Positions 13,152 to 33,499 of a stretch of DNA of 33,977 nucleotides are shown in pieces. The position numbers and the translations under genes are program-made. The notes under the pieces are model-generated. The model saw only the letters and a program-made list of their open reading frames with translations. It was not told where the DNA came from and made no database searches. The DNA is from a virus, in IMG/VR virus record IMGVR_UViG_3300008120_001356, positions 1-33,977 of that record, one strand, 5' to 3'. How positions within the stretch are numbered: the first letter of the stretch is position 1; each line of letters begins with the position of its first letter.

Positions 13152-13585
13152 CCGCGAACACGCAACCTATTTTTCCCTTAACTCCCAAGGTGTCTTGGGG
13201 AACCGTTACAACCGCCAATACCGCAAAGGATGGCACAGGCACCGTCGTCACTGTATTTACCGCAGGAGCTGACGGGTCAAGGATTGACCAAATCAAGGTT
13301 CGCGCACTGGGAACCAACGTTGCCACTGTCATAAGATTTTTCGTCAACAATGGCTCGACGAACGCAACCGCGGCCAACAACTCTCTGGTACACGATACCA
13401 CGATCGCGGCTACCACGAACACAGAAACCGCGGCATTAGTAGACAACAACATCACCATTAACATTAACACAACTGAAACTGTCCCTCCAATCCCTTATCT
13501 ACCAGCGGGTTACAAGATTAATGTCACTATCGGCACAACCGTCGCGGCTGGTCTCCAGATCACCGTCTGGGGAGCGGACTATTAA
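13148..13585 (+). CDS. Beta-rich virion surface protein, function unknown
   Basis: 145 residues, mostly short beta strands rich in Thr, Val and Asn (TVTTANTAKDGTGTVVTVFTAG, GSRIDQIKVRALGTNVATVIRFFVNN, YLPAGYKINVTIGTTVAAG, ending ITVWGADY). The pattern fits a jelly-roll or beta-sandwich, as in neck or tail appendage proteins. The ATG follows GGAGGTGCTTT within the upstream gene's last codons. Tight coupling with the glycine-rich gene points to a shared appendage. I do not know a tested function for this family. Confidence 0.55.
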   Translation: MTANTQPIFPLTPKVSWGTVTTANTAKDGTGTVVTVFTAGADGSRIDQIKVRALGTNVATVIRFFVNNGSTNATAANNSLVHDTTIAATTNTETAALVDNNITININTTETVPPIPYLPAGYKINVTIGTTVAAGLQITVWGADY

Positions 13586-14439
13586 TGTCTTTTAACGATG
13601 GGCTAATCCAAAAGCCAAACATCCTCGACAAGCAAAAAAAGAAAAAATACGCCAGCTTTAGCCCCTTGTTCCGACCTCGCCAACCCAAGGAAGCTCTCGA
13701 AATCGAAGTCGAGTATCTGGTCATCGCTGGCGGTGGCGGAGGTGGTGGAGCAGGTGGCTCTTCCAACGCATCAGGAGGCGGGGGAGCTGGGGGTTATCGC
13801 TCTTCCGTCACAGGCGAAAACTCTGGAGGCGGCGCGTCTGCCGAGACCAAAGTCAAATGGAAGTTTGCCCAAAGCTTCATCGTCACAGTCGGCGGCGGAG
13901 GACCTGGGGGAACGTCGACCAACCGCGGCACCAACGGAAGCGACTCTGTTTTCACCGTCACCTCAACAGGTGGCGGCGGTGGCTCAAGTCCATTCAACAC
14001 TCAACCTGCTCAAACTGGAGGCTCTGGTGGTGGTGGAGGTTCCTCTACAGGCACCGCGGGAGCTTCGGGAACGACAAATCAAGGTTTCGCTGGAGGCAAC
14101 GGCGGAGCTAATGGAGTCACAGGCGGAGGCGGTGGAGCTTCGGCAGTTGGAGTCAACGGAGACGCAGGAGCGGCGAGAAAAAGCGGAAACGGCGGCGCAG
14201 GGGTCTCGTCATCCATCACAGGCTCAAGCACAGCAAGAGCAGGAGGCGGCGGTGGCGGAAGAGGTTCTCTTGCGTTTGACATCGGCTCAGGCGGCACTGG
14301 TGGCGGAGGCAATGGCGGACTATCAGGCACAGCTGGCGCGGCAGGGACAGGCAACACAGGTAGCGGAGGCGGAGGTTCACCACCACAACAAGCGGCGGTT
14401 GGAGAATTTACACTTTTACCCAAGGAAATGACACGATAA
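13585..14439 (+). CDS. Glycine-rich tail appendage (adhesin-type), C-terminus shifted out of frame
   Basis: 284 residues, with a short head (residues 1-47), then VEYLVIAGGGGGGGAGG and a long poly-glycine part of the kind that forms glycine-rich sandwich adhesion tips on phage fibres. The in-frame end (SPPQQAAVGEFTLLPKEMTR) is not family-like. In the +2 frame from about 14373 to TGA at 14447 the codons read RFTTTTSGGWRIYTFTQGND and end ITV, the usual last strand of this domain. A small indel (3n+1 lost) in the GGAGGC repeats, or phase variation by slippage, would explain this. Confidence 0.7.
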   Translation: MSFNDGLIQKPNILDKQKKKKYASFSPLFRPRQPKEALEIEVEYLVIAGGGGGGGAGGSSNASGGGGAGGYRSSVTGENSGGGASAETKVKWKFAQSFIVTVGGGGPGGTSTNRGTNGSDSVFTVTSTGGGGGSSPFNTQPAQTGGSGGGGGSSTGTAGASGTTNQGFAGGNGGANGVTGGGGGASAVGVNGDAGAARKSGNGGAGVSSSITGSSTARAGGGGGGRGSLAFDIGSGGTGGGGNGGLSGTAGAAGTGNTGSGGGGSPPQQAAVGEFTLLPKEMTR

Positions 14440-14456: not shown

Positions 14457-14768
14457 ATGGCACACTATGCTTATCTTGATGAAAATAACATTGTTACCTG
14501 TGTCATCACAGGCAAAGACGAAGGCGAGGATGGCATCGACTGGGAGGCTTACTATGGCGAGTTCCGCGGACAAGTCTGCAAACGGACATCTTACAACACT
14601 CGCGCGGGAGTCCACATCTCAGGAGGCACACCCTACCGCAAAAACTACGCAGGGATAGGGTACACCTACGACCCTGACAGAGATGCCTTCATCCCTCCGC
14701 GACCCGACGGGGATGGATGGGTGCTGGACGAACAATCATGCCTATGGGACTGGGAGGAGTCACAATGA
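14457..14768 (+). CDS. Conserved virion-associated protein with RKNYAGIGYTYD signature
   Basis: 103 residues: MAHYAYLDENNIVTCVITGKDE, then CKRTSYNTRAGVH, RKNYAGIGYTYDPDRDAFIPP and a C-terminal Trp-rich WVLDEQSCLWDWEE. The signature is familiar to me from marine T4-like and other environmental phages, where it lies among structural genes; no function is established. It follows GAGGTGGTTAA after the glycine-rich gene and overlaps the holin start by four bases. It may be an appendage part or chaperone. Confidence 0.6.
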   Translation: MAHYAYLDENNIVTCVITGKDEGEDGIDWEAYYGEFRGQVCKRTSYNTRAGVHISGGTPYRKNYAGIGYTYDPDRDAFIPPRPDGDGWVLDEQSCLWDWEESQ

Positions 14769-15145
14769 AAATTGCAATTAACAGCGTCGGGGGAGCAGTC
14801 GGCGTCATTATCGGTCTTATAGGGGAGTGGACGCCAATGTTATCTCTATTTTTCACTGTTTTAGTCATCGATTATGTTTCTGGCGTGATGGCTGCCGTCA
14901 TTGAGAGGAAACTCTCAAGCTCAGTGGGACTCAGGGGACTTATCAAAAAGTTTGCGATGGTGCTTATTGTTGTCTTAGCGCATCAACTCGACCAATACGC
15001 AGGGACTCATCTCATCCAAAGTGGCGTGATTATGTTTTTCATCGTCAACGAGTTAATATCCATCACCGAAAACTACGGGCGAATCGGTCTCCCATTGCCT
15101 CCACAAATCAAAAATGTCATTGCGATGCTCAAGGAGAAAAAATGA
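14765..15145 (+). CDS. Holin (phage_holin_4 / toxin-secretion holin family)
   Basis: 126 residues with three or four hydrophobic segments: GGAVGVIIGLIGEWTPML, LFFTVLVIDYVSGVMAAVI, FAMVLIVVLAHQLDQY and GVIMFFIVNELISITENYG. The D-Y-x-[ST]-G-x-x-A motif and ENxGRxGLPLPPxIKNxIxxL end are hallmarks of this family. It makes holes in the membrane and releases the amidase. The ATG at 14765 after GGAGGAGTCACA is chosen over the longer in-frame ORF. ATGA overlap links it with the amidase. Confidence 0.9.
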   Translation: MKIAINSVGGAVGVIIGLIGEWTPMLSLFFTVLVIDYVSGVMAAVIERKLSSSVGLRGLIKKFAMVLIVVLAHQLDQYAGTHLIQSGVIMFFIVNELISITENYGRIGLPLPPQIKNVIAMLKEKK

Positions 15146-15771
15146 GCTACATCGTAGACCACATCCCACGCACGACGGCGAACAATCGACGACCAGGGAC
15201 AGCGATGACAGCGGAAACGATAACCATTCACAACACAGGCAACCCTCGCTCCACAGCACGAGCGGAGCGGAACTGGCTCGTCAGTGCGCAGAACTCCCGT
15301 CAAGCGAGTTATCACATCGTCATCGATGACAAGGAGACGATAGAATGTCTCCCACTCAACGAAGTGGCATGGCACGCAGGGGATGGCAGGGGAAACGGCA
15401 ATATGAGAAGCATTGGAATTGAGATCTGTGAGTCTGGGGACTATGCGAAAACTCTGGAAAGAGCTGTGGAACTCGTCGCCAAGATGCTCCGTGAAAGAAG
15501 ATGGGGGACTGATCGGCTTCGCAGACATTTCGATTGGTCAAAGAAAATATGCCCGAGGCTCATGTACGACCAAGGAACGTGGAAAGGGTGGACTGAGTTT
15601 ATGTCAAAAGTGGAAAATGAGCTGAACCCTCTTAGTGATCTCTCACACTGGGCAAAGGATGCGTGGCTCTGGGCGATAAAAGAGGGTCTCATCGACGGAA
15701 AAGACCCCAAGGGGATCATCACAAGGGAGCAACTTGTAACGATATTGTACCGCATGAAAAACCGCCCCTAG
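15142..15771 (+). CDS. Endolysin: N-acetylmuramoyl-L-alanine amidase (Amidase_2) with SLH-like C-terminus
   Basis: Cuts the amide bond between muramic acid and the peptide stem in peptidoglycan. Residues 20-160 form an Amidase_2 (T7 lysozyme-like) domain: TITIHNTG with His30, GIEICESGDY, and zinc ligands expected at His129 (RRHFDWS) and Cys137 (KICPRLM). Residues 165-209 form one SLH-like unit (SHWAKDAWLWAIKEGLIDG, ITREQLVTILYRM) that probably binds the cell wall. The gene ends inside the arm of a terminator, closing the lysis operon. Confidence 0.92.
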   Translation: MSYIVDHIPRTTANNRRPGTAMTAETITIHNTGNPRSTARAERNWLVSAQNSRQASYHIVIDDKETIECLPLNEVAWHAGDGRGNGNMRSIGIEICESGDYAKTLERAVELVAKMLRERRWGTDRLRRHFDWSKKICPRLMYDQGTWKGWTEFMSKVENELNPLSDLSHWAKDAWLWAIKEGLIDGKDPKGIITREQLVTILYRMKNRP

Positions 15772-15788: not shown

Positions 15789-15817
15789 TTGATTATTTTT
15801 TAATTTGTGATTATAAT
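15789..15817 (+). promoter_or_regulatory. Putative promoter upstream of parM
   Basis: TTGATT, 17 bases, TATAAT: a good vegetative (SigA-type) promoter directly after the late terminator. Transcription would start near 15824, just before the hairpin at 15826-15850, so its product may be a short RNA unless termination is overcome. Confidence 0.6.
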
Positions 15818-15825
15818 TAACCTTG

Positions 15826-15857
15826 CCTCGATGGAAAGCATCCGTCGGGGTTTATTT
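15826..15857 (+). terminator. Hairpin with T-rich tail just after the promoter (attenuator-like)
   Basis: CCTCGATGG and CCGTCGGGG form a nine-pair stem with two G-T pairs around AAAGCAT, followed by TTTATTT. It lies only a few bases past the predicted start of the promoter at 15789-15817. It could be a backup terminator for the late operon or an attenuator for the par genes. Confidence 0.6.
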
Positions 15858-15886
15858 GTCATATTAAATTTTTCCCCTCATATACT
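15856..15886 (+). promoter_or_regulatory. Second putative promoter for the par operon
   Basis: TTGTCA, 19 bases, TATACT. The spacing is longer than ideal, so it would be weak or factor-dependent. It lies directly before the TACATCACA repeats, the place where a ParR-type protein usually represses its own operon. Confidence 0.4.
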
Positions 15887-15889
15887 ACC

Positions 15890-15941
15890 TACATCACACC
15901 CAAAGCCCAAAAAGGCTCGGGTACATCACAACTAGGGGTGA
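15890..15941 (+). repeat. TACATCACA direct repeats upstream of parM (candidate centromere/operator)
   Basis: TACATCACA occurs at 15890-15898 and 15922-15930, 32 bases apart (about three helical turns). An inverted relative, GGGGTGAT, follows at 15935-15942. Between the repeats, CCC..GCC and GGC..GGG can pair. Type II partition systems usually have their parC repeats just upstream of parM, bound by ParR. Confidence 0.5.
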
Positions 15942-15945
15942 TCTC

Positions 15946-16731
15946 ATGATCGTAGGCTTAGACATCGGCAGATCAAGTGTCAAAGTGTTCACTGGCGACA
16001 AAATGGAACAGTTTCCCTCATATCTGGGCGAGTGGCGCAAGCGGAAACTCTCCTCTGAACACAAGGACGACATCGAGGTGGAGTTCCAAGGGGAAAAATA
16101 CTTTGCCGGCACGCTCGCACAAAATGAAAGTGAGTTTGCGCGCTCCATGATGACAGAGGAGAAAGCCCACGCTGACACTCTCCTGCTCGCCCTGGTCGCA
16201 CTCCACCGCGTGACCACAGAGGCCAACATCATCACAGGGCTTCCTGTCTACCTGCATGATACGGAAAGGAAAAACGCACTCAAGCAACTCCTGAGAGGCA
16301 ATGGAAAGTGGGACATCACCGTCAACGGAGTCAAGAAAACCATCTCCGTGCCGCGGATTGAAGTGGCGGTAGAAGGTGGCGCGGCGTTCTGGTCATCTCC
16401 ACGGGACGGCCTCGTCAGAGTCATCGACGCAGGTAGCAGGACCGTGAATTATGTCACTCTCAAGGACAAAAGATACGTGGATCGCGACTCTGGCACTCTC
16501 CCTTTTGGCTTTGGCACCACCATCTCAGGCGACCTCCGTCAAATGGCCGCACGTATCGCAGGGGAACTGGGGAGAAAATGGCGAGAGACGGATGCCGTTC
16601 TTGTCGCTGGTGGCAGGGCGGAGGAGCTAGCAAAGGAATTGAAGCAATATTTCCCACAGACTGAGTGCTTCGTGAACCCACTTTTTGCCAACGCCATCGG
16701 CTACTACCGAATAGGACGGAAACTCCTATGA
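15946..16731 (+). CDS. parM: ParM-like actin-family segregation ATPase
   Basis: Actin-like protein that forms filaments to push plasmid copies apart. All three nucleotide-binding motifs are visible: phosphate-1 GLDIGRSSVKV at residues 4-14 (Asp6), phosphate-2 VIDAGSRT at 159-166, and adenosine motif VLVAGGRAEEL at 218-228. IITGLP at 95-100 is also typical of ParM and Alp proteins. At 261 residues it is shorter than R1 ParM (320). AGGGGTGAT precedes the ATG. It overlaps the parR-like gene by ATGA, and repeat arrays lie on both sides, the usual layout of a type II partition system. Confidence 0.85.
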   Translation: MIVGLDIGRSSVKVFTGDKMEQFPSYLGEWRKRKLSSEHKDDIEVEFQGEKYFAGTLAQNESEFARSMMTEEKAHADTLLLALVALHRVTTEANIITGLPVYLHDTERKNALKQLLRGNGKWDITVNGVKKTISVPRIEVAVEGGAAFWSSPRDGLVRVIDAGSRTVNYVTLKDKRYVDRDSGTLPFGFGTTISGDLRQMAARIAGELGRKWRETDAVLVAGGRAEELAKELKQYFPQTECFVNPLFANAIGYYRIGRKLL

Positions 16732-16931
16732 AAAACTTCAAACGGATGCACATCGTGTTCAATTTAGACAATCCGCACCAGAGAGACCTTTACGAATGGT
16801 GCATGAGTCAGTCAACCAACTTCTCAGGCTTCGCTCGCTCGGTTCTCTTCGCCTACAAGGAACGCACTCCCTCCACTCCAGTCATCACTCACTCTTCCGA
16901 CGACTCTTCCGCGATGGCTGACCTGCTCTAA
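16728..16931 (+). CDS. parR: ParR-like centromere-binding adaptor
   Basis: 67 residues: MKNFKRMHIVFNLDNPHQRDLYEWCMSQ, then NFSGFARSVLFAYKE and a polar tail ending in hydrophobic MADLL. The short N-terminal strand plus two helices fit a ribbon-helix-helix DNA-binding fold as in pSK41 ParR, and the C-terminal tail is where ParR proteins touch ParM. The start overlaps the parM stop (ATGA). The assignment rests mainly on position and fold pattern. It would bind the repeats before parM or those at 16895-17018 and probably repress the operon. Confidence 0.65.
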   Translation: MKNFKRMHIVFNLDNPHQRDLYEWCMSQSTNFSGFARSVLFAYKERTPSTPVITHSSDDSSAMADLL

Positions 16932-17018
16932 TCCGACTCATATTCCGACGCGGAATTTCAATCGGACACGAAAAACCCACTTATACCAACACTTTTGACC
17001 ATTTTTCTCCCTTCCGAC
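16895..17018 (+). repeat. TTCCGAC repeats after parR (possible second centromere/operator)
   Basis: TTCCGAC occurs at 16895-16901, 16943-16949 and 17012-17018, with ATCCGAC at 16931-16937 and the inverted form TCGGA at 16962-16966. Most lie in the 130 bases between parR and the FtsK-like gene. Irregular spacing makes this weaker than a classic iteron array. Confidence 0.4.
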
Positions 17019-17028
17019 TTTGCAAAAC

Positions 17029-17042
17029 TATCCTAAAGGATA
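17029..17042. promoter_or_regulatory. 14-base palindrome before the FtsK-like gene (possible operator)
   Basis: TATCCTAAAGGATA is a perfect inverted repeat lying 21 bases before the ATG of the ATPase gene. No clear promoter is seen, but TTTGCAAAAC and TATTTAAT flank it. It may be a regulator's binding site for the ftsK-relaxation-pilin operon. Confidence 0.4.
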
Positions 17043-17063
17043 CCTATTTAATGGAGGTGGCGC

Positions 17064-18341
17064 ATGCTTATAGAAATCATCGGCTCATTAGGAGCGGCTG
17101 GACTCCTCACATACACTCTCGTTGAGCAAAATGCCTCCCTCACCGACGCAGGCAAGATTCAGCGGGTGGCAAACAACTGCGGACTCACGATCACGGAGAA
17201 GGGACGCAAGCAAACCATTCATCTCCTGCGAAAAAGTCGCCATGCGTGGGGGAGCGAGTACGTCTACCGCATCCCGTTGGGACTCTCGTTTGACGATGTC
17301 CAGAGGAAAAAATCCCACATCGAGGATGGACTCAATCACAAGCGCGGAGTCTTGGACTTAACTTTGGACGATTTCCTGTCCCTCGACCTTAAATCTGACA
17401 TCCTGACGCAGATCAGGAAGCTCCTGACGTCTACGAAGCACAAAAAAGAGATAATAATGGAGTATGACGGCACCTTGAAAATCAAAGTTTACCACGACCC
17501 GATGCCCGAGCGAGTCAATTTTCACTCTGGCAAGGACTGGAAAGTGTGCGTCGGCGTCTCTCGGGAGGGTCTCGTGTATCACGACTTTGAAATGATACCT
17601 CACATGGTAGTCGCGGGGATGACTCGATATGGAAAATCGGTGTTCCTGAAGAACATTATCACCAGTCTCATCAGTCAACCCATCACCTTTACCCTTGTCG
17701 ACTTAAAAGGCGGCCTCGCGTTTAATCGGTTTGTCAGCGTCTCCAAAGTGGAAACGGTAGCATCTGACGTATCGGAAACACTGACAGCTCTACGGGGCAT
17801 TTCTGACGCTCTCAAGAGCAAGCAGAAAGAGTTGCTCAAGATGAAAAAAGAGGATGTGAAAGAGTCTAACGACCGCTCCAGACACTTTATCATCATCGAC
17901 GAGGGCGCGGAAATCGCGTCACAAGGCGAAACCAATGCGGAAAGAAAGAAAATGAAAATCGAATGCGAGCAAATCCTTGGAGAGATTGCACGTATCGGCG
18001 GCGCATTAGGTTACAGGCTCATCTTTGCCACTCAATACCCTACGGCCGACACTCTGCCCCGTCAGGTCAAGCAGAATGCCGATGCCAGACTGTGCTTTCG
18101 TCTCCCGACGGAGACGGCCTCTAGGGTGGTGCTAGACGACTCTGGAGCGGAGTCCTTGCCACTTATCAAAGGGAGAGCTATCTACCGAACTGACCGTGTC
18201 ACCATCGTGCAGACGCCATACGTCGAAAACAACTATATAGATGAGGCGATACGTCCCTATATTGTCATCAAGCCTCGGAAGGAGGAGCATGCGAAACCAC
18301 GAGAGAGACGAGAGCATTCTCTTATCATTGAAGAGACTTGA
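17064..18341 (+). CDS. FtsK/SpoIIIE-HerA type DNA-translocase ATPase
   Basis: 425 residues. One hydrophobic segment lies at residues 3-20. The ATPase core has Walker A GMTRYGKS at 185-192, the LVDLKGG strand at 211-217, Walker B HFIIIDE at 274-280, and the IFATQYPTADTLP sensor strand after it. This is the layout of FtsK-like coupling proteins of mobile elements (Tn916 Orf21, ICEBs1 ConQ) and of the FtsK-like genes found after the endolysin in Bacillus phages such as W-beta and Gamma. It probably pumps double-stranded DNA at the membrane or recruits DNA to a partner. GGAGGTGGCGC precedes the ATG. It overlaps the relaxation gene by 53 bases. Confidence 0.85.
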   Translation: MLIEIIGSLGAAGLLTYTLVEQNASLTDAGKIQRVANNCGLTITEKGRKQTIHLLRKSRHAWGSEYVYRIPLGLSFDDVQRKKSHIEDGLNHKRGVLDLTLDDFLSLDLKSDILTQIRKLLTSTKHKKEIIMEYDGTLKIKVYHDPMPERVNFHSGKDWKVCVGVSREGLVYHDFEMIPHMVVAGMTRYGKSVFLKNIITSLISQPITFTLVDLKGGLAFNRFVSVSKVETVASDVSETLTALRGISDALKSKQKELLKMKKEDVKESNDRSRHFIIIDEGAEIASQGETNAERKKMKIECEQILGEIARIGGALGYRLIFATQYPTADTLPRQVKQNADARLCFRLPTETASRVVLDDSGAESLPLIKGRAIYRTDRVTIVQTPYVENNYIDEAIRPYIVIKPRKEEHAKPRERREHSLIIEET

Positions 18342-18882
18342 CTATCTATCACGGAGTCAGCTCCAGAAGCTCCATCAATTAGGAGGCGAGAGGAACGCAC
18401 GCAGGGTCATGGCGTCGCTCTCAGAGTATCTCCACAGCTTCCGCGGCGACAATGGGGAGAGCATCTACTATTTGACCAAGGCTGGCCGTGAGCGAGTGGG
18501 GGCGGATAAAGTGAGGGCTAAGCTAGCGGATGCGAATCACTATCTGATGCGAAGCGATGCGTATCTATTTTTTAAGGCAAGCGACTGGAAAAATGAGATG
18601 AAATTCACGATCCCAGGAACGGTGCAGGTCATCCCAGATGCTTATTTCCTACTCAATATGCGTAGATATTTTCTCGAAATTGACAATCTGCAAAGTTTGT
18701 CCAAAAACAAGGAAAAGCTGGAAAAGTATCGCAAGCTCAAGGCCTCTAATCTCCTACAAGAGCGACTCCGATACTTTCCGACCCTGATATGGGTGACCTT
18801 GACGGAGACCAGAAAAAAACATCTTGAAAATTGGTCAGAAGGCTTAGAATCGAAAATATACTTATGGAAAGAAATTAAATAG
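18289..18882 (+). CDS. Replication-relaxation family protein
   Basis: 197 residues. The N-terminal 60 form a winged-helix unit (ESILLSLKRLDYLSRSQLQKLHQLG, NARRVMASLSEYLHSF) and SIYYLTKAGRERVG. The C-terminal half has IPDAYFLLNMRRYFLEIDNLQSL, whose PDAxFxL...FLEID looks like a restriction-type nuclease strand. Family members are found on plasmids and Bacillus phages next to FtsK-like ATPases; a nicking or regulatory role is assumed, not proven. The start is the ATG after GGAAGGAGGAG at 18280-18288, inside the end of the ATPase gene, showing an operon. Confidence 0.75.
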   Translation: MRNHERDESILLSLKRLDYLSRSQLQKLHQLGGERNARRVMASLSEYLHSFRGDNGESIYYLTKAGRERVGADKVRAKLADANHYLMRSDAYLFFKASDWKNEMKFTIPGTVQVIPDAYFLLNMRRYFLEIDNLQSLSKNKEKLEKYRKLKASNLLQERLRYFPTLIWVTLTETRKKHLENWSEGLESKIYLWKEIK

Positions 18883-18893
18883 GAGGAGATATT

Positions 18894-19313
18894 ATGAATG
18901 TGACAATGGGCGTCAAAGGTGGCGAAAGAGTCTCGTTGACTCAAGTGGAGGCCATCATCATGGAGAAAGTGAAGCTCGACCCGAAGCTAGGCAGAATCGC
19001 GGGACTACTCCCTCTGGGCATACTGGTCACATCTATCCCTCATCATGCTTTCGCGGCTCCAGAGGCGGTGCCAGTGATAGGGGGAGCCATCAAAGACAAA
19101 ATCATCCACTCGTTTGACCCGCTGATCGACCTTATCCAAGCGTTGGCGTTTCCGATCGCTGGCGTCATGATCGCAGGGGGATGTCTGTTTATCATGGTGG
19201 GCAACCGCGAGCGGGGGATGCAGATGCTCCAAAATGCGGCGATAGGTTATATCCTTGTCCAACTGTCACCTTTGATGTTAGACTTGCTGGTAGGCATCGG
19301 CCAATCGGTATAA
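18894..19313 (+). CDS. VirB2/TrbC-like pilin-type small membrane protein
   Basis: 139 residues. A long N-terminal part ends in GLLPLGILVTSIPHHAFAAP, a probable signal or anchor with an AFA-A cleavage site near residue 54. Two further hydrophobic helices follow (LIDLIQALAFPIAGVMIAGGCLFIM, AAIGYILVQLSPLMLDLLVGI), joined by a short basic loop GNRERG. This is the plan of TrbC/VirB2 pilin subunits of type IV secretion systems. No other secretion genes are in the window. AGGAGGAGAT precedes the ATG, 11 bases after the relaxation gene, so it is in the same operon. Confidence 0.6.
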   Translation: MNVTMGVKGGERVSLTQVEAIIMEKVKLDPKLGRIAGLLPLGILVTSIPHHAFAAPEAVPVIGGAIKDKIIHSFDPLIDLIQALAFPIAGVMIAGGCLFIMVGNRERGMQMLQNAAIGYILVQLSPLMLDLLVGIGQSV

Positions 19314-19361: not shown

Positions 19362-20762
19362 TTAAGCTTTCCAGATGATGGAGATTTCTTTCCCATCCTT
19401 GACCTCGATTCGTTTCACCAGTTGGGCCAATGCTCGCTTGAGTTCCAAGCGATTGTCAGTTTCGACGTATGACTCAAAAACTCGATTCTCGTGAGCGGCG
19501 ATGGAGCGGATCAACTCTTCCCGCTCTTTTTCTAGTCGAGTGCGAGCTTTTTTCAAATCATCTGCGGTGATGAGTTCATTCTCGTAGGCTTCAATCTGCT
19601 TTTGCCATCGCGATTCAATCTTTTCCAGTTTGTTCTTGAGCAGGTCTTTCTCGACGATGTCCACAGGCTCGGCCTTAAAATATTCAATCTCACTTGGGTC
19701 CGCGTCGGAGATTCGTTTCCATTCGGTCAAGACAAGAGGTTCGATTTCCTCTCTGTGGACAAAGTGATGGAAGCAGTTTCCTCGCTTGTTGTAGCCTTCG
19801 CAAAGGTACTTGTGATAGACCTTTCGATTCTGGTTAAGGTTCTTGCGTACAGTTCTGCCCACCATCTTCCCACCACAATGGACGCAGACGACGAGACCTG
19901 ACAAGAGGTAGTTGTCGGATGCAAAATGCTTCCTTGCTCCTGTTTTACGTGCGTAGAGGATCTGGTTGGCTTTCTCGAACATTTCCTTTGAGATAATCGG
20001 CTGGTGATGATCTTCGATGACAATCCACTCCTCTGATGGCCTTTTGACTTGAGACTTTCCCTTGCGATATTTTCTGTTATAAATGAAAGTCCCTGTCAAT
20101 GCTTCCAGTTTCATCAAGTCGCGGATTCTGCCCTCTGTCCACGCTTTTCCACCTTTAGACAGGATGCCAAGCTGATTAAGTTTAGCAGAGATCGCGAGAG
20201 GACCGAGAGACTCATTGAGAAACCAGTCAAAGATTTTCCTCACGATCAGCGACTCCTCGACGTTGATGCGATACTCCCCATCAACGACCTCATACCCGTA
20301 AGCAGCCTTCCCGATCAGGCGATTCTTCCGAGCAAGCGAGCGAAGGTTTTCCTGCACTCTTTCACGGTTCCGCTCCCGCTCAAACTCCGCGACTGCTCCC
20401 AGAACCTGCAAAGTGAGCTTTCCCGCGGCGGTTGACGTGTCGAAGGATTCAGACACAGACGCATAAGCCACAGAGTGCTTCTCGAAAAACTCCACGATGG
20501 ACAAAATATCTGAAAGTTTCCGCGATAGCCTGTCCAATTTAGTCGTGATGATGACGTCAAAGTCTTTCACGCTCTCCAAAAGCCTCTGTAAGTTTTTCCT
20601 GTTCAAGTCCTTTGCAGAATACCCATCATCAATGAAAACCTGCGGTGACTGCCATCCCATCGCTTTACAATAGGCTCTGCCTCTCTCCTCTTGCTCTTCT
20701 AGTGAGTTTCCTTGCTTGGCTTGCTCCTCTGTCGAAACTCGTACATATAGGGCTGTTCTCAT
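19362..20762 (-). CDS. int: Large serine recombinase (phage integrase)
   Basis: 466 residues that integrate and excise the prophage between attP and attB. The catalytic domain starts MRTALYVRVSTEEQAKQG with nucleophile Ser10 and has TTKLDRLSR at 73-81 and FDTSTAAGK around 107-115. The recombinase domain follows (AYGYEVVDG, TGTFIYNRKYRKG). A zinc ribbon has Cys293, Cys296, Cys321 and Cys330, then a coiled coil near 365-425. The start at 20762 has CAGGAGACGAC before it and is preferred over the longer frame. It is transcribed against the pilin gene. attP should flank the gene, but I could not place it. No recombination directionality factor is recognisable. Confidence 0.93.
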   Translation of the reverse strand: MRTALYVRVSTEEQAKQGNSLEEQEERGRAYCKAMGWQSPQVFIDDGYSAKDLNRKNLQRLLESVKDFDVIITTKLDRLSRKLSDILSIVEFFEKHSVAYASVSESFDTSTAAGKLTLQVLGAVAEFERERNRERVQENLRSLARKNRLIGKAAYGYEVVDGEYRINVEESLIVRKIFDWFLNESLGPLAISAKLNQLGILSKGGKAWTEGRIRDLMKLEALTGTFIYNRKYRKGKSQVKRPSEEWIVIEDHHQPIISKEMFEKANQILYARKTGARKHFASDNYLLSGLVVCVHCGGKMVGRTVRKNLNQNRKVYHKYLCEGYNKRGNCFHHFVHREEIEPLVLTEWKRISDADPSEIEYFKAEPVDIVEKDLLKNKLEKIESRWQKQIEAYENELITADDLKKARTRLEKEREELIRSIAAHENRVFESYVETDNRLELKRALAQLVKRIEVKDGKEISIIWKA

Positions 20763-20797
20763 GTCGTCTCCTGTCAGTTTTTGTCGGTAAATGCACA

Positions 20798-20826
20798 TTG
20801 CAAAATAGAACGCACATTCGTATAAT
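20798..20826 (+). promoter_or_regulatory. Strong plus-strand promoter between integrase and repressor
   Basis: TTGCAA, 17 bases, TATAAT. It points towards the small frame at 20858 and against the repressor gene. The perfect inverted repeat TACAACTTGTA at 20832-20842 covers the predicted start of transcription, so the promoter is probably repressed. Confidence 0.7.
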
Positions 20827-31733: not shown

Positions 31734-32108
31734 ATGCCAATAAATAACACTATCACACCAACAGGACGCGGGATACCCACAACCACAACAGTGACCATCG
31801 ACAACGGCGCATCTTTATCGGGTGCCGTCAACTTATCAGGCTTCACACTTATCGGCATCGACATGCCAGCATCATGGACAGCGGCAAACTTGACTCTACA
31901 AGCCAGCATCGACAACTCCACATGGGACAACGTGTTTGACTCTCTCGGGACAGAGGTGACCATCACAGCTGCGGCATCGAGATTCATCTTACTCAACCCT
32001 GCCGACTTTGTTTCCGTCCGCTACCTCAAAGTACGTAGTGGCACATCAGGGACACCTGTCAACCAAGGCGGAGCGAGGACAATCACACTCATCGTGAGGG
32101 CGATATGA
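31734..32108 (+). CDS. Virion surface protein, beta-rich (appendage cassette, first gene)
   Basis: 124 residues: PTGRGIPTTTTVTIDNGASL, FTLIGIDMPASWTAANLTLQ, TEVTITAAASRFILLNPADF and ARTITLIVRAI. It looks like a jelly-roll of the kind seen in phage appendage proteins; the pair with a LamG-type protein recurs in phages. ATG at 31734 follows GAGAGGAGACTACTT. It is the first gene after the late promoter and overlaps the LamG gene by four bases. Confidence 0.55.
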   Translation: MPINNTITPTGRGIPTTTTVTIDNGASLSGAVNLSGFTLIGIDMPASWTAANLTLQASIDNSTWDNVFDSLGTEVTITAAASRFILLNPADFVSVRYLKVRSGTSGTPVNQGGARTITLIVRAI

Positions 32109-33499
32109 GTCTACTCCTACTACGGAAAAGGTTTAACCCTCGGAGCCTACCCAACCTGCAACTATGGCTACCTGCCGACCGTATCGGGGTGCAGGGCTAC
32201 TCGTTAGACTTTGACGGGACAGATGATTATGTACAGGCAGACAACGAGATAACAGCCTACCCGTTTACCCTAGAGTGTTGGGTAAGACCAGAAACAACAG
32301 GAGTAACTCATAGTTTAGTCACAATTAATGATAGTACAACTTCCTCTATTTATTATGGTATTTATTTTACGGGTTCTCGTTTTGGCATACAGGCTAGAAA
32401 TACAACAGTTCGAGGAAATACAACAACTAACACTTTTACAACAAATGTTTGGTATCATGTTGCAGGTGTTTTTAATTCAGCAACAGACCGAAAATTATAT
32501 GTTAATGGAGTAGAACAAGTTACAGGCACAGATTCAGTTAATTTTAGCAATACAGCAAATAATAAAGTTTTACTAGGAGTAGTAAGAATAGTATCTCCGA
32601 CAAGTTATCTGAACGGTCAACTCTCAGACGTCCGCATATGGAACACCGCACGCACCCAGCAACAAATCGCCGACAACTACCAAAAACGACTCATCGGCAA
32701 CGAATCGGGCTTAGTAGGCTACTGGAAACTCGATAAAGGGAGCGGCACAACCGTAGCAGACTCCACGACCAACGCCAACGCAGGAACAATCACGGGTGCC
32801 ATATGGGACAACAGCGAACCTTTCACCGAGCCGATAGACGACGGCACAGCGGTGCGGATATGGAGCGACCAAAGCGGCAACGGCTATGACGCGACACAGT
32901 CCACCACAGCGGCAAGACCGACTTATATCACGAGTGGGCTGAACGGGTTACCTGTGGTGAGGTTTGACGGTACGGATGACCATTTAGGATTTAGCGGCGG
33001 AGCATTGAGTTTGCTAAAAAATGTAGCAGGAGCAACAATTTTTGTAGCGGTCAAATATTCAGCAACCGCAGTAAATGCTCCTTCCTTTTTTGCATCAAGA
33101 AATAGTTCGTCAACTAGTGTAAGAATTTTAATACGTACGTCAACAGCTCCAAAATACAATATGCAAGCGACAAGATTAGACGCAGACACCGCGATAAATA
33201 TGAATTCAGTTCAAGCGACTAACACCAATAGTGTTGTCATCCAGACAGCAAAAGCAGATTATCAAAATCAAACTTTAGAGCAATTTATCAACGGGACACT
33301 TGACGGGTCAACTACTTTCGCGACATCAGGTAATACAGAAAACGCGGATTCATTAGCAATTTTCTTGGGCAGAGTTTCATCAACTTATTTAACAGGCGAC
33401 ATCGCAGAAATCATAGTATACAACCGAGCACTAAACACAAGCGAGCTAAGCCAAGTCCATCGCTACCTTGCGAGAAAGTGGGGGATAGCACTTGCGTAA
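32105..33499 (+). CDS. LamG/concanavalin-like adhesin with nested domains
   Basis: 464 residues with two laminin-G-like domains. The opening LPNLQLWLPADRIG (residues 15-28) is the first strand of a domain that resumes at about 246 with TAVRIWSDQSGNGYDATQST and VVRFDGTDDHLGF and ends AEIIVYNRALNTSEL. A second complete LamG domain lies between, from YSLDFDGTDDYVQADN to GLVGYWKLDKGSG. So one domain seems inserted into a loop of the other. The cores of both domains are AT-rich compared with their edges. It probably binds sugars on the host surface. Confidence 0.75.
   Translation: MSLLLLRKRFNPRSLPNLQLWLPADRIGVQGYSLDFDGTDDYVQADNEITAYPFTLECWVRPETTGVTHSLVTINDSTTSSIYYGIYFTGSRFGIQARNTTVRGNTTTNTFTTNVWYHVAGVFNSATDRKLYVNGVEQVTGTDSVNFSNTANNKVLLGVVRIVSPTSYLNGQLSDVRIWNTARTQQQIADNYQKRLIGNESGLVGYWKLDKGSGTTVADSTTNANAGTITGAIWDNSEPFTEPIDDGTAVRIWSDQSGNGYDATQSTTAARPTYITSGLNGLPVVRFDGTDDHLGFSGGALSLLKNVAGATIFVAVKYSATAVNAPSFFASRNSSSTSVRILIRTSTAPKYNMQATRLDADTAINMNSVQATNTNSVVIQTAKADYQNQTLEQFINGTLDGSTTFATSGNTENADSLAIFLGRVSSTYLTGDIAEIIVYNRALNTSELSQVHRYLARKWGIALA

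Follow-up and report, generated by a model that had tools for sequence, protein, structure and literature searches.

The five genes that lie between the lysis genes and the integrase of this phage form two separable modules, an actin/adaptor partition pair (positions 15946-16931) and a conserved phage operon (17064-19313) that encodes an FtsK-type ATPase, a Replic_Relax protein, and a small pilin-like membrane protein. The make-up of the operon resembles the mobilization genes of conjugative elements, so phage genomes may cross a membrane by a route that does not involve virions. Genes that have long been annotated singly in many Bacillus phages, as "FtsK," "replication-relaxation," or "hypothetical," are parts of one conserved operon, and the nearest known parts belong to conjugative mobilization.

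Gene content and distribution of the locus

The DNA analyzed is a 33,977-base IMG/VR virus record, here called the window. It comes from a Bacillales phage and carries genes for terminase, portal, capsid, tail, holin, amidase, and serine integrase, together with repressor-type genes, a replisome organizer, and DnaB. The original prediction placed five same-direction genes between lysis and integrase, and gene calls and domain matches show that these genes are real; all are on the plus strand, with the lysis genes on one side and the serine integrase on the other (Table 1). The identities proposed for them, ParM/ParR, an FtsK ATPase, a relaxation protein, and a pilin-like protein, were borne out as far as a partition pair, an ATPase, a relaxation protein, and a VirB2/TrbC-like subunit are concerned, with the actin retyped as AlfA, the ATPase placed closest to TcpA, and the relaxation protein predicted to be nuclease-like. 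The cassette is shared with a close relative (L002) whose integrase differs, being 33% identical to that of the window; in another (L003) the integrase identity is 96%.

Table 1. Features of the partition pair, the operon, and the flanking genes
Feature	Position	Strand	Evidence and remarks
Holin	14717-15145		Lysis gene; PF05105
Amidase	15142-15771		Lysis gene; PF01510
Leader of the actin gene	15807-15945		Small inverted/direct ATCAC/GTGAT arrangement; conserved in 4 close relatives
Predicted AlfA-type actin-like partition protein, 261 aa	15946-16731	+	PF17989 ALP_N 1e-27; phrog_691 "partition protein" 4e-47
ParR/AlfB-like small adaptor, 67 aa, RHH-type pattern	16728-16931	+	ATG overlaps the parM stop; corrected start
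FtsK/HerA-family ATPase, TcpA-like	17064-18341	+	PF01580 6e-14; Walker A GMTRYGKS, Walker B IIIDE
Replic_Relax protein	18289-18882	+	PF13814 3e-15; best start 18289, AGGAGG just upstream; corrected start
T4SS-pilin/VirB2-like protein	18894-19313	+	PF18895 2e-5, 25.0 bits, just under the cut-off of 26.6
Large serine integrase	19362-20798	-	PF00239, PF07508

The five genes had been proposed to be a single cassette. We drew 80 viral and 80 genomic loci by FtsK similarity, so the counts describe linkage to this FtsK subfamily and not to FtsK at large. parM lies near 10 of the 80 viral FtsK loci and 1 of the 80 genomic ones (where the score, 27 bits, is weak), and the reading of the five genes as one unit was dropped because the actin pair is optional at these loci. 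The expected co-occurrence elsewhere does hold for the last three genes, and only partly for parM. The order ftsK, relaxation gene, pilin gene on one strand was found in 74 of the 80 viral and 66 of the 80 genomic loci, and in both sets the trio is mostly without the actin pair. Among 145 distinct loci, 136 have the relaxation gene and 134 the pilin gene; lysis genes are close by in most, with an amidase cluster in 110, not always upstream, and 100 loci have a gene for a small XRE regulator near ftsK, usually divergent and just before it. Andromedavirus-type and Geobacillus phages have the FtsK-relaxation pair as well, in most cases together with the pilin gene, and the pair is found in B. megaterium phages. 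The label "plasmid-type," which had been given to the whole set, does not suit the trio, as the Andromedavirus-type phages, which also carry it, can at most have lost a plasmid-prophage state (PMC9658697).

When viral loci were drawn by the actin alone, 29 of 67 contained an FtsK-like gene and 5 had a pilin gene without FtsK. In 43 distinct actin loci with at least 3.5 kb of downstream sequence, ftsK lies within 4.5 kb in 21 and the pilin gene in 13. D6E and three others have actin, adaptor, pilin, and a large P-loop protein, and other actin loci have actin, adaptor, M23 peptidase, and a large P-loop protein. The D6E-type large P-loop protein gave no significant PDB match by profile and owes its VirD4-likeness to its RefSeq name; weak TrwB matches were obtained only with the M23-linked type. 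The trio, too, can have an M23 wall peptidase gene after the pilin gene: this was seen in 17 loci, of which 14 are distinct in sequence, with M23 starts at -60 to +500 nt relative to the stop of the pilin gene and mostly at -3 to +40 nt. The window itself has no M23 gene at this place. In actin loci without the pilin gene, other small membrane proteins often fill the slot between adaptor and ftsK. Among them is a SpoIIIAC/AD-like protein (PF06686, 4e-5, at its cut-off), encoded in 11 actin loci, 10 of these with ftsK downstream.

The partition pair

A PDB search with a profile of six relatives gave AlfA as the best match to the actin (6bqw, 1.6e-20; also 6f95). An AF2 model built from 45 sequences (pLDDT 94.7) again had AlfA as its best Foldseek match (6bqw, 1.2e-18, and 6f95). 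AlfA has no subdomain IIB. The window protein is likewise predicted to be a short actin without this subdomain; in the model, as read from secondary structure, only about 45 residues separate the phosphate-2 strands from the adenosine-motif strand, and the two proteins are collinear. As AlfA provides the closest solved structures by both sequence and predicted fold, we assign the actin to the AlfA type and not to ParM in the strict sense. Compared with AlfA/AlfB of the B. subtilis plasmid pLS32/pBS32, the actin is of nearly equal length (261 versus 275 amino acids) and is also followed directly by a small adaptor gene. The identity is about 23%, however, the adaptor is likened by position and pattern, the centromere is putative, and the window pair is carried by an integrase-bearing phage.

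A gene for this small, RHH-looking protein stands directly 3' of parM in 62 of 63 relatives, the arrangement of type II (ParMRC-like) systems, in which an RHH adaptor gene lies directly downstream of the actin gene. In these relatives the C-terminal tail often ends in -FI, -FV, -FL, or -LI. Profile scans of the adaptor yielded no Pfam match and a weak PHROG match (0.003). The proposal of an RHH-like ParR is upheld by the gene arrangement; the RHH identity of the protein is read from its sequence pattern. The AlfA-type pair probably moves phage DNA inside the cell, and the leader in front of it is possibly an operator or a centromere. Repeat arrays had been reported on both sides of parMR, but neither side, with three copies each, rises above chance: upstream, the top 9-mer family has a p of about 0.25 against shuffles, and downstream TTCCGAC gives a weak signal, with a p of about 0.02 before correction.

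The operon proteins

The Walker motifs of the ATPase are invariant in its relatives, and hydropathy predicts one N-terminal membrane segment (residues 2-20). The best matches in a PDB profile search were 6o1z/6o1x, "DNA translocase coupling protein" (6e-24), of the set 6o1w-z, which we take to be TcpA of pCW3. Among solved structures, the profile match places the ATPase closest to this conjugative coupling protein; a TcpA structure has been described (PMC12857230). The gene order is also alike: in Gram-positive IMEs and ICEs tcpA sits just upstream of the relaxase gene (PMC5357655), and here too an FtsK-type ATPase is encoded just upstream of the relaxation protein. The streptococcal IMEs, which together with the Tn916-ICEBs1 elements carry such TcpA-relaxase modules, are also missing a full T4SS. 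The modules differ in that the window has a PF13814 relaxation protein and theirs is of the RCR/MobT type, and in the single predicted membrane segment, the phage context, and the extra pilin-like gene of the window. Gamma-like phages have been reviewed as carrying FtsK/SpoIIIE (PMC4113786).

The AF2 model of the Replic_Relax protein (pLDDT 96.8) consists of a winged helix and a PD-(D/E)XK nuclease-like domain. Foldseek matched it to Cdn1, the site-specific nickase N.BspD6I, Can2, and MarR-type wHTH proteins, with modest E values (1e-4 to 1e-2). Residues E103, D117, E130, D132, N140, K143, and Y147 are invariant in 62 of 62 relatives. From fold and motif, the protein is predicted to be nuclease-like, with the fold of MOBC relaxases. 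These relaxases have a restriction-endonuclease-type active site (PMC12857230), which fits the predicted fold and the invariant acidic residues. PF13814 has been counted as a MobC relaxase in IMEs (PMC5357655), and the link to MobC goes back to this count. Relaxases such as TraX of pAD1 and MobC of CloDF13 share the PD-(D/E)XK-type fold that is predicted for the window protein. The latter is unlikely to be a replication initiator, a role for which it is not needed, as the phage encodes its own replisome organizer and DnaB.

The pilin-like protein has AFA at residues 52-54 followed by two membrane segments (84-102 and 117-135), as in VirB2-type pilins. In most members of the family an AxA motif precedes the mature part, and the family is similar to PF18895 and PF04956. 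The likeness to TrbC/VirB2 and PF18895 T4SS pilins thus consists of this motif, the two helices, and weak profile matches; on the other side, the PF18895 score stays under the curated cut-off, and VirB4, VirB6, and VirB8 partners were not found among the scanned window proteins and recurrent neighbors. VirB2-type pilins are reported to be absent from Gram-positive T4SSs with one exception (PMC12857230).

Discussion

We consider mobilization-like delivery of phage DNA across a membrane the best single reading of the locus, because of the tcpA-relaxase layout of IMEs and ICEs and the counting of PF13814 as MobC (PMC5357655), and because MOBC relaxases are restriction enzyme-like (PMC12857230). 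We put it forward tentatively, at somewhat less than an even chance. AlfAB would position the DNA: the AlfA-type actin and the RHH adaptor would bind a site near their own promoter and move or space phage genomes, as AlfAB does for pLS32/pBS32. The Replic_Relax protein would recognize a phage site via its winged helix, nick or open the DNA via its PD-(D/E)XK domain, and pass it to the pump, a hexameric, membrane-anchored TcpA/FtsK-like protein. The VirB2-like two-helix protein may line or open a passage across the envelope, and in some relatives the M23 peptidase may assist it. The phage DNA would then cross the membrane as a mobilization module does, alone or via a host conjugation pore, and its destination might be another cell, the forespore, or the septum. 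Movement through the membrane had been tentatively suggested for the prophage as well; the pilin-M23 operon and the TcpA/MOBC-like pair lend it indirect support, and it should still be read conditionally.

Several observations count against mobilization. A complete T4SS, with a VirB4 ATPase and pore proteins, was not seen: no VirB4-, VirB6-, or VirB8-like genes were found among the about 20 window proteins scanned or among the recurrent neighbors, whose clusters were assessed visually through representative members. There is also no identified oriT, the pilin-like protein scores below the Pfam cut-off, and Gram-positive T4SSs rarely have a VirB2-type subunit. The nuclease activity is a prediction from fold and motif, with modest Foldseek E values. 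Some phages that carry the operon are not known to form lysogens.

The other readings each account for part of the evidence. The operon could pump phage DNA across the sporulation septum, with AlfAB bringing the DNA to the pole and the genome carried in spores. SpoIVA is present in all genomes with the relaxation gene (25 of 25 in one order, against a background of 196 of 261, and 14 of 14 in a class sample, against 267 of 400), and the SpoIIIAC/AD-like protein fills the small-membrane slot in actin loci. The forespore role of SpoIIIE has been raised before in connection with these phages (PMC3853051, PMC4599081), spores trap the DNA of CP-51 (PMC4113786), and AlfA acts in growth and development, to go by the title of Becker 2006 as cited in PMC6751061. 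A restriction to spore-formers, with p = 7e-4 at first in one order, shrinks once prophage load is controlled: holins occur in 12 of 65 non-spore-formers versus 88 of 196 spore-formers, which gives 3.3 cassettes expected versus 0 (p = 0.04), and within holin-positive genomes p is 0.21. The spore link is a lead only, because the effect is weak after this control. The hosts also form phylogenetic clusters, the ATPase resembles TcpA more closely than SpoIIIE/FtsK, and the nuclease is left unexplained; we think this reading unlikely. We give no better prospects to plasmid-prophage maintenance only, in which AlfAB would partition a circular prophage and FtsK and Replic_Relax would help to replicate or resolve its DNA. 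Bacillus plasmid prophages commonly have ParM and an RHH protein, some with Replic_Relax (PMC8026635), and the same idea has been published for Novomoskovsk and Bolokhovo (PMC9658697). A sibling phage, pGspE55-2, is recorded as a circular 43-kb plasmid; it holds an entire phage, the trio and a recombinase included. However, it has no parM, and the trio is mostly found apart from the actin gene. The window and most actin carriers also have an integrase or a Xer-type recombinase (of 50, 12 with the serine type and 29 with the tyrosine type, two with both). Circular ends were looked for in the window and in 10 actin carriers, and terminal repeats were seen in none of them. Neither the pilin-like protein nor the M23 peptidase is needed for maintenance. 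The proposal that the prophage is partitioned as a plasmid draws support from the partition pair and from the plasmid record of the sibling.

Pairs of FtsK/HerA and PD-(D/E)XK proteins are a known theme in defense, and a membrane ATPase and a nuclease could degrade or block incoming DNA in superinfection exclusion. The moron-like site between lysis and integrase, the XRE regulator near ftsK, and weak PADLOC matches of the FtsK-like protein (SspH, mad8, HerA) are in keeping with this. PADLOC recognized neither the relaxation protein nor the pilin protein, though, and the link to actin partition genes and the M23 peptidase is left unexplained; we regard defense as decidedly improbable. We give hardly any credence to a second holin/endolysin pair made up of the pilin-like protein and M23, with the other genes incidental. 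In some relatives a small two-helix membrane protein is directly followed by a peptidase without an obvious signal peptide, but the window has a holin and an amidase already just upstream and no M23 gene after its pilin gene, and the pilin-like family has the pilin features described above.

If mobilization-like delivery applies, the boundary between phages and conjugative elements is blurred, and there is a testable reason for the retention of the operon in temperate and apparently virulent Bacillus phages. If the operon works toward the forespore, it would account for the carriage of phages in spores. A broader and rather doubtful idea is that a compact DNA-export device, shared horizontally, is present in phages of spore-forming Bacillota and transfers their genomes from cell to cell or into forespores without making use of virions. 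It would be composed of a TcpA-like pump, a MOBC-like nuclease, a VirB2- or SpoIIIAC-like membrane subunit, and, optionally, an M23 peptidase and AlfAB.

Some of this has been described before. The gene names and the joint presence of TrbC/VirB2, Replic_Relax, FtsK, and RHH genes are already published for two Andromedavirus-type phages, Novomoskovsk and Bolokhovo (PMC9658697). These phages differ from the window in having no actin gene, and the set is read there as a plasmid-prophage relic; a conserved operon, the nuclease fold, and the M23/SpoIIIAC variants are not described in the passages considered here. Within the open PMC literature, what seems new is that the operon is conserved, that Replic_Relax has a predicted nuclease fold and invariant residues, that the actin is assigned to the AlfA type, and that variants with M23 or SpoIIIAC occur. 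The gene pair is also carried by MVC_VPHSA1 and MVC_VPHSA2, which are labeled Staphylococcus phages; they are closest to Bacillus phages, and the host label is doubtful.

In a close relative of the window (L002), the actin and ftsK-relax-pilin genes are very similar to those of the window and the serine integrase is different, indicating that the integrase was swapped independently of the cassette. The circular plasmid record NZ_AP022559.1 from Geobacillus subterraneus is a complete phage carrying the trio. In the related loci L009 and L190, as in others, the pilin gene is followed at once by one encoding an M23 peptidase with no obvious signal peptide.

Large P-loop proteins (760 to 850 aa), without a clear match in Pfam or PDB, adjoin the actin genes of three relatives. 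Eleven phage actin loci (L121 and ten more) encode a SpoIIIAC/AD-like membrane protein of 62 to 74 aa 3' of the adaptor gene, and a diverged ftsK-relax pair lies downstream of it in 10 of the 11. In the window itself, a product with Laminin-G/sialidase-N-like domains is possibly a host-binding or decoration protein.

Features in the window and in related loci (L numbers)
Feature	Position	Context
SpoIIIAC/AD-like membrane protein	L121:11009-11212	3' of adaptor gene; phage locus
Large P-loop protein	L122:11596-14145	adjoins actin gene
Large P-loop protein	L125:12352-14808	adjoins actin gene
Large P-loop protein	L164:12461-14872	adjoins actin gene
M23 peptidase gene	L009:8264-8863	directly 3' of pilin gene
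M23 peptidase gene	L190:12295-12924	directly 3' of pilin gene
Glycine-rich protein, 284 aa	window 13585-14439	between tail and lysis genes
Laminin-G/sialidase-N-like domain protein (PF13385, PF02973)	window 32105-33499	near window end
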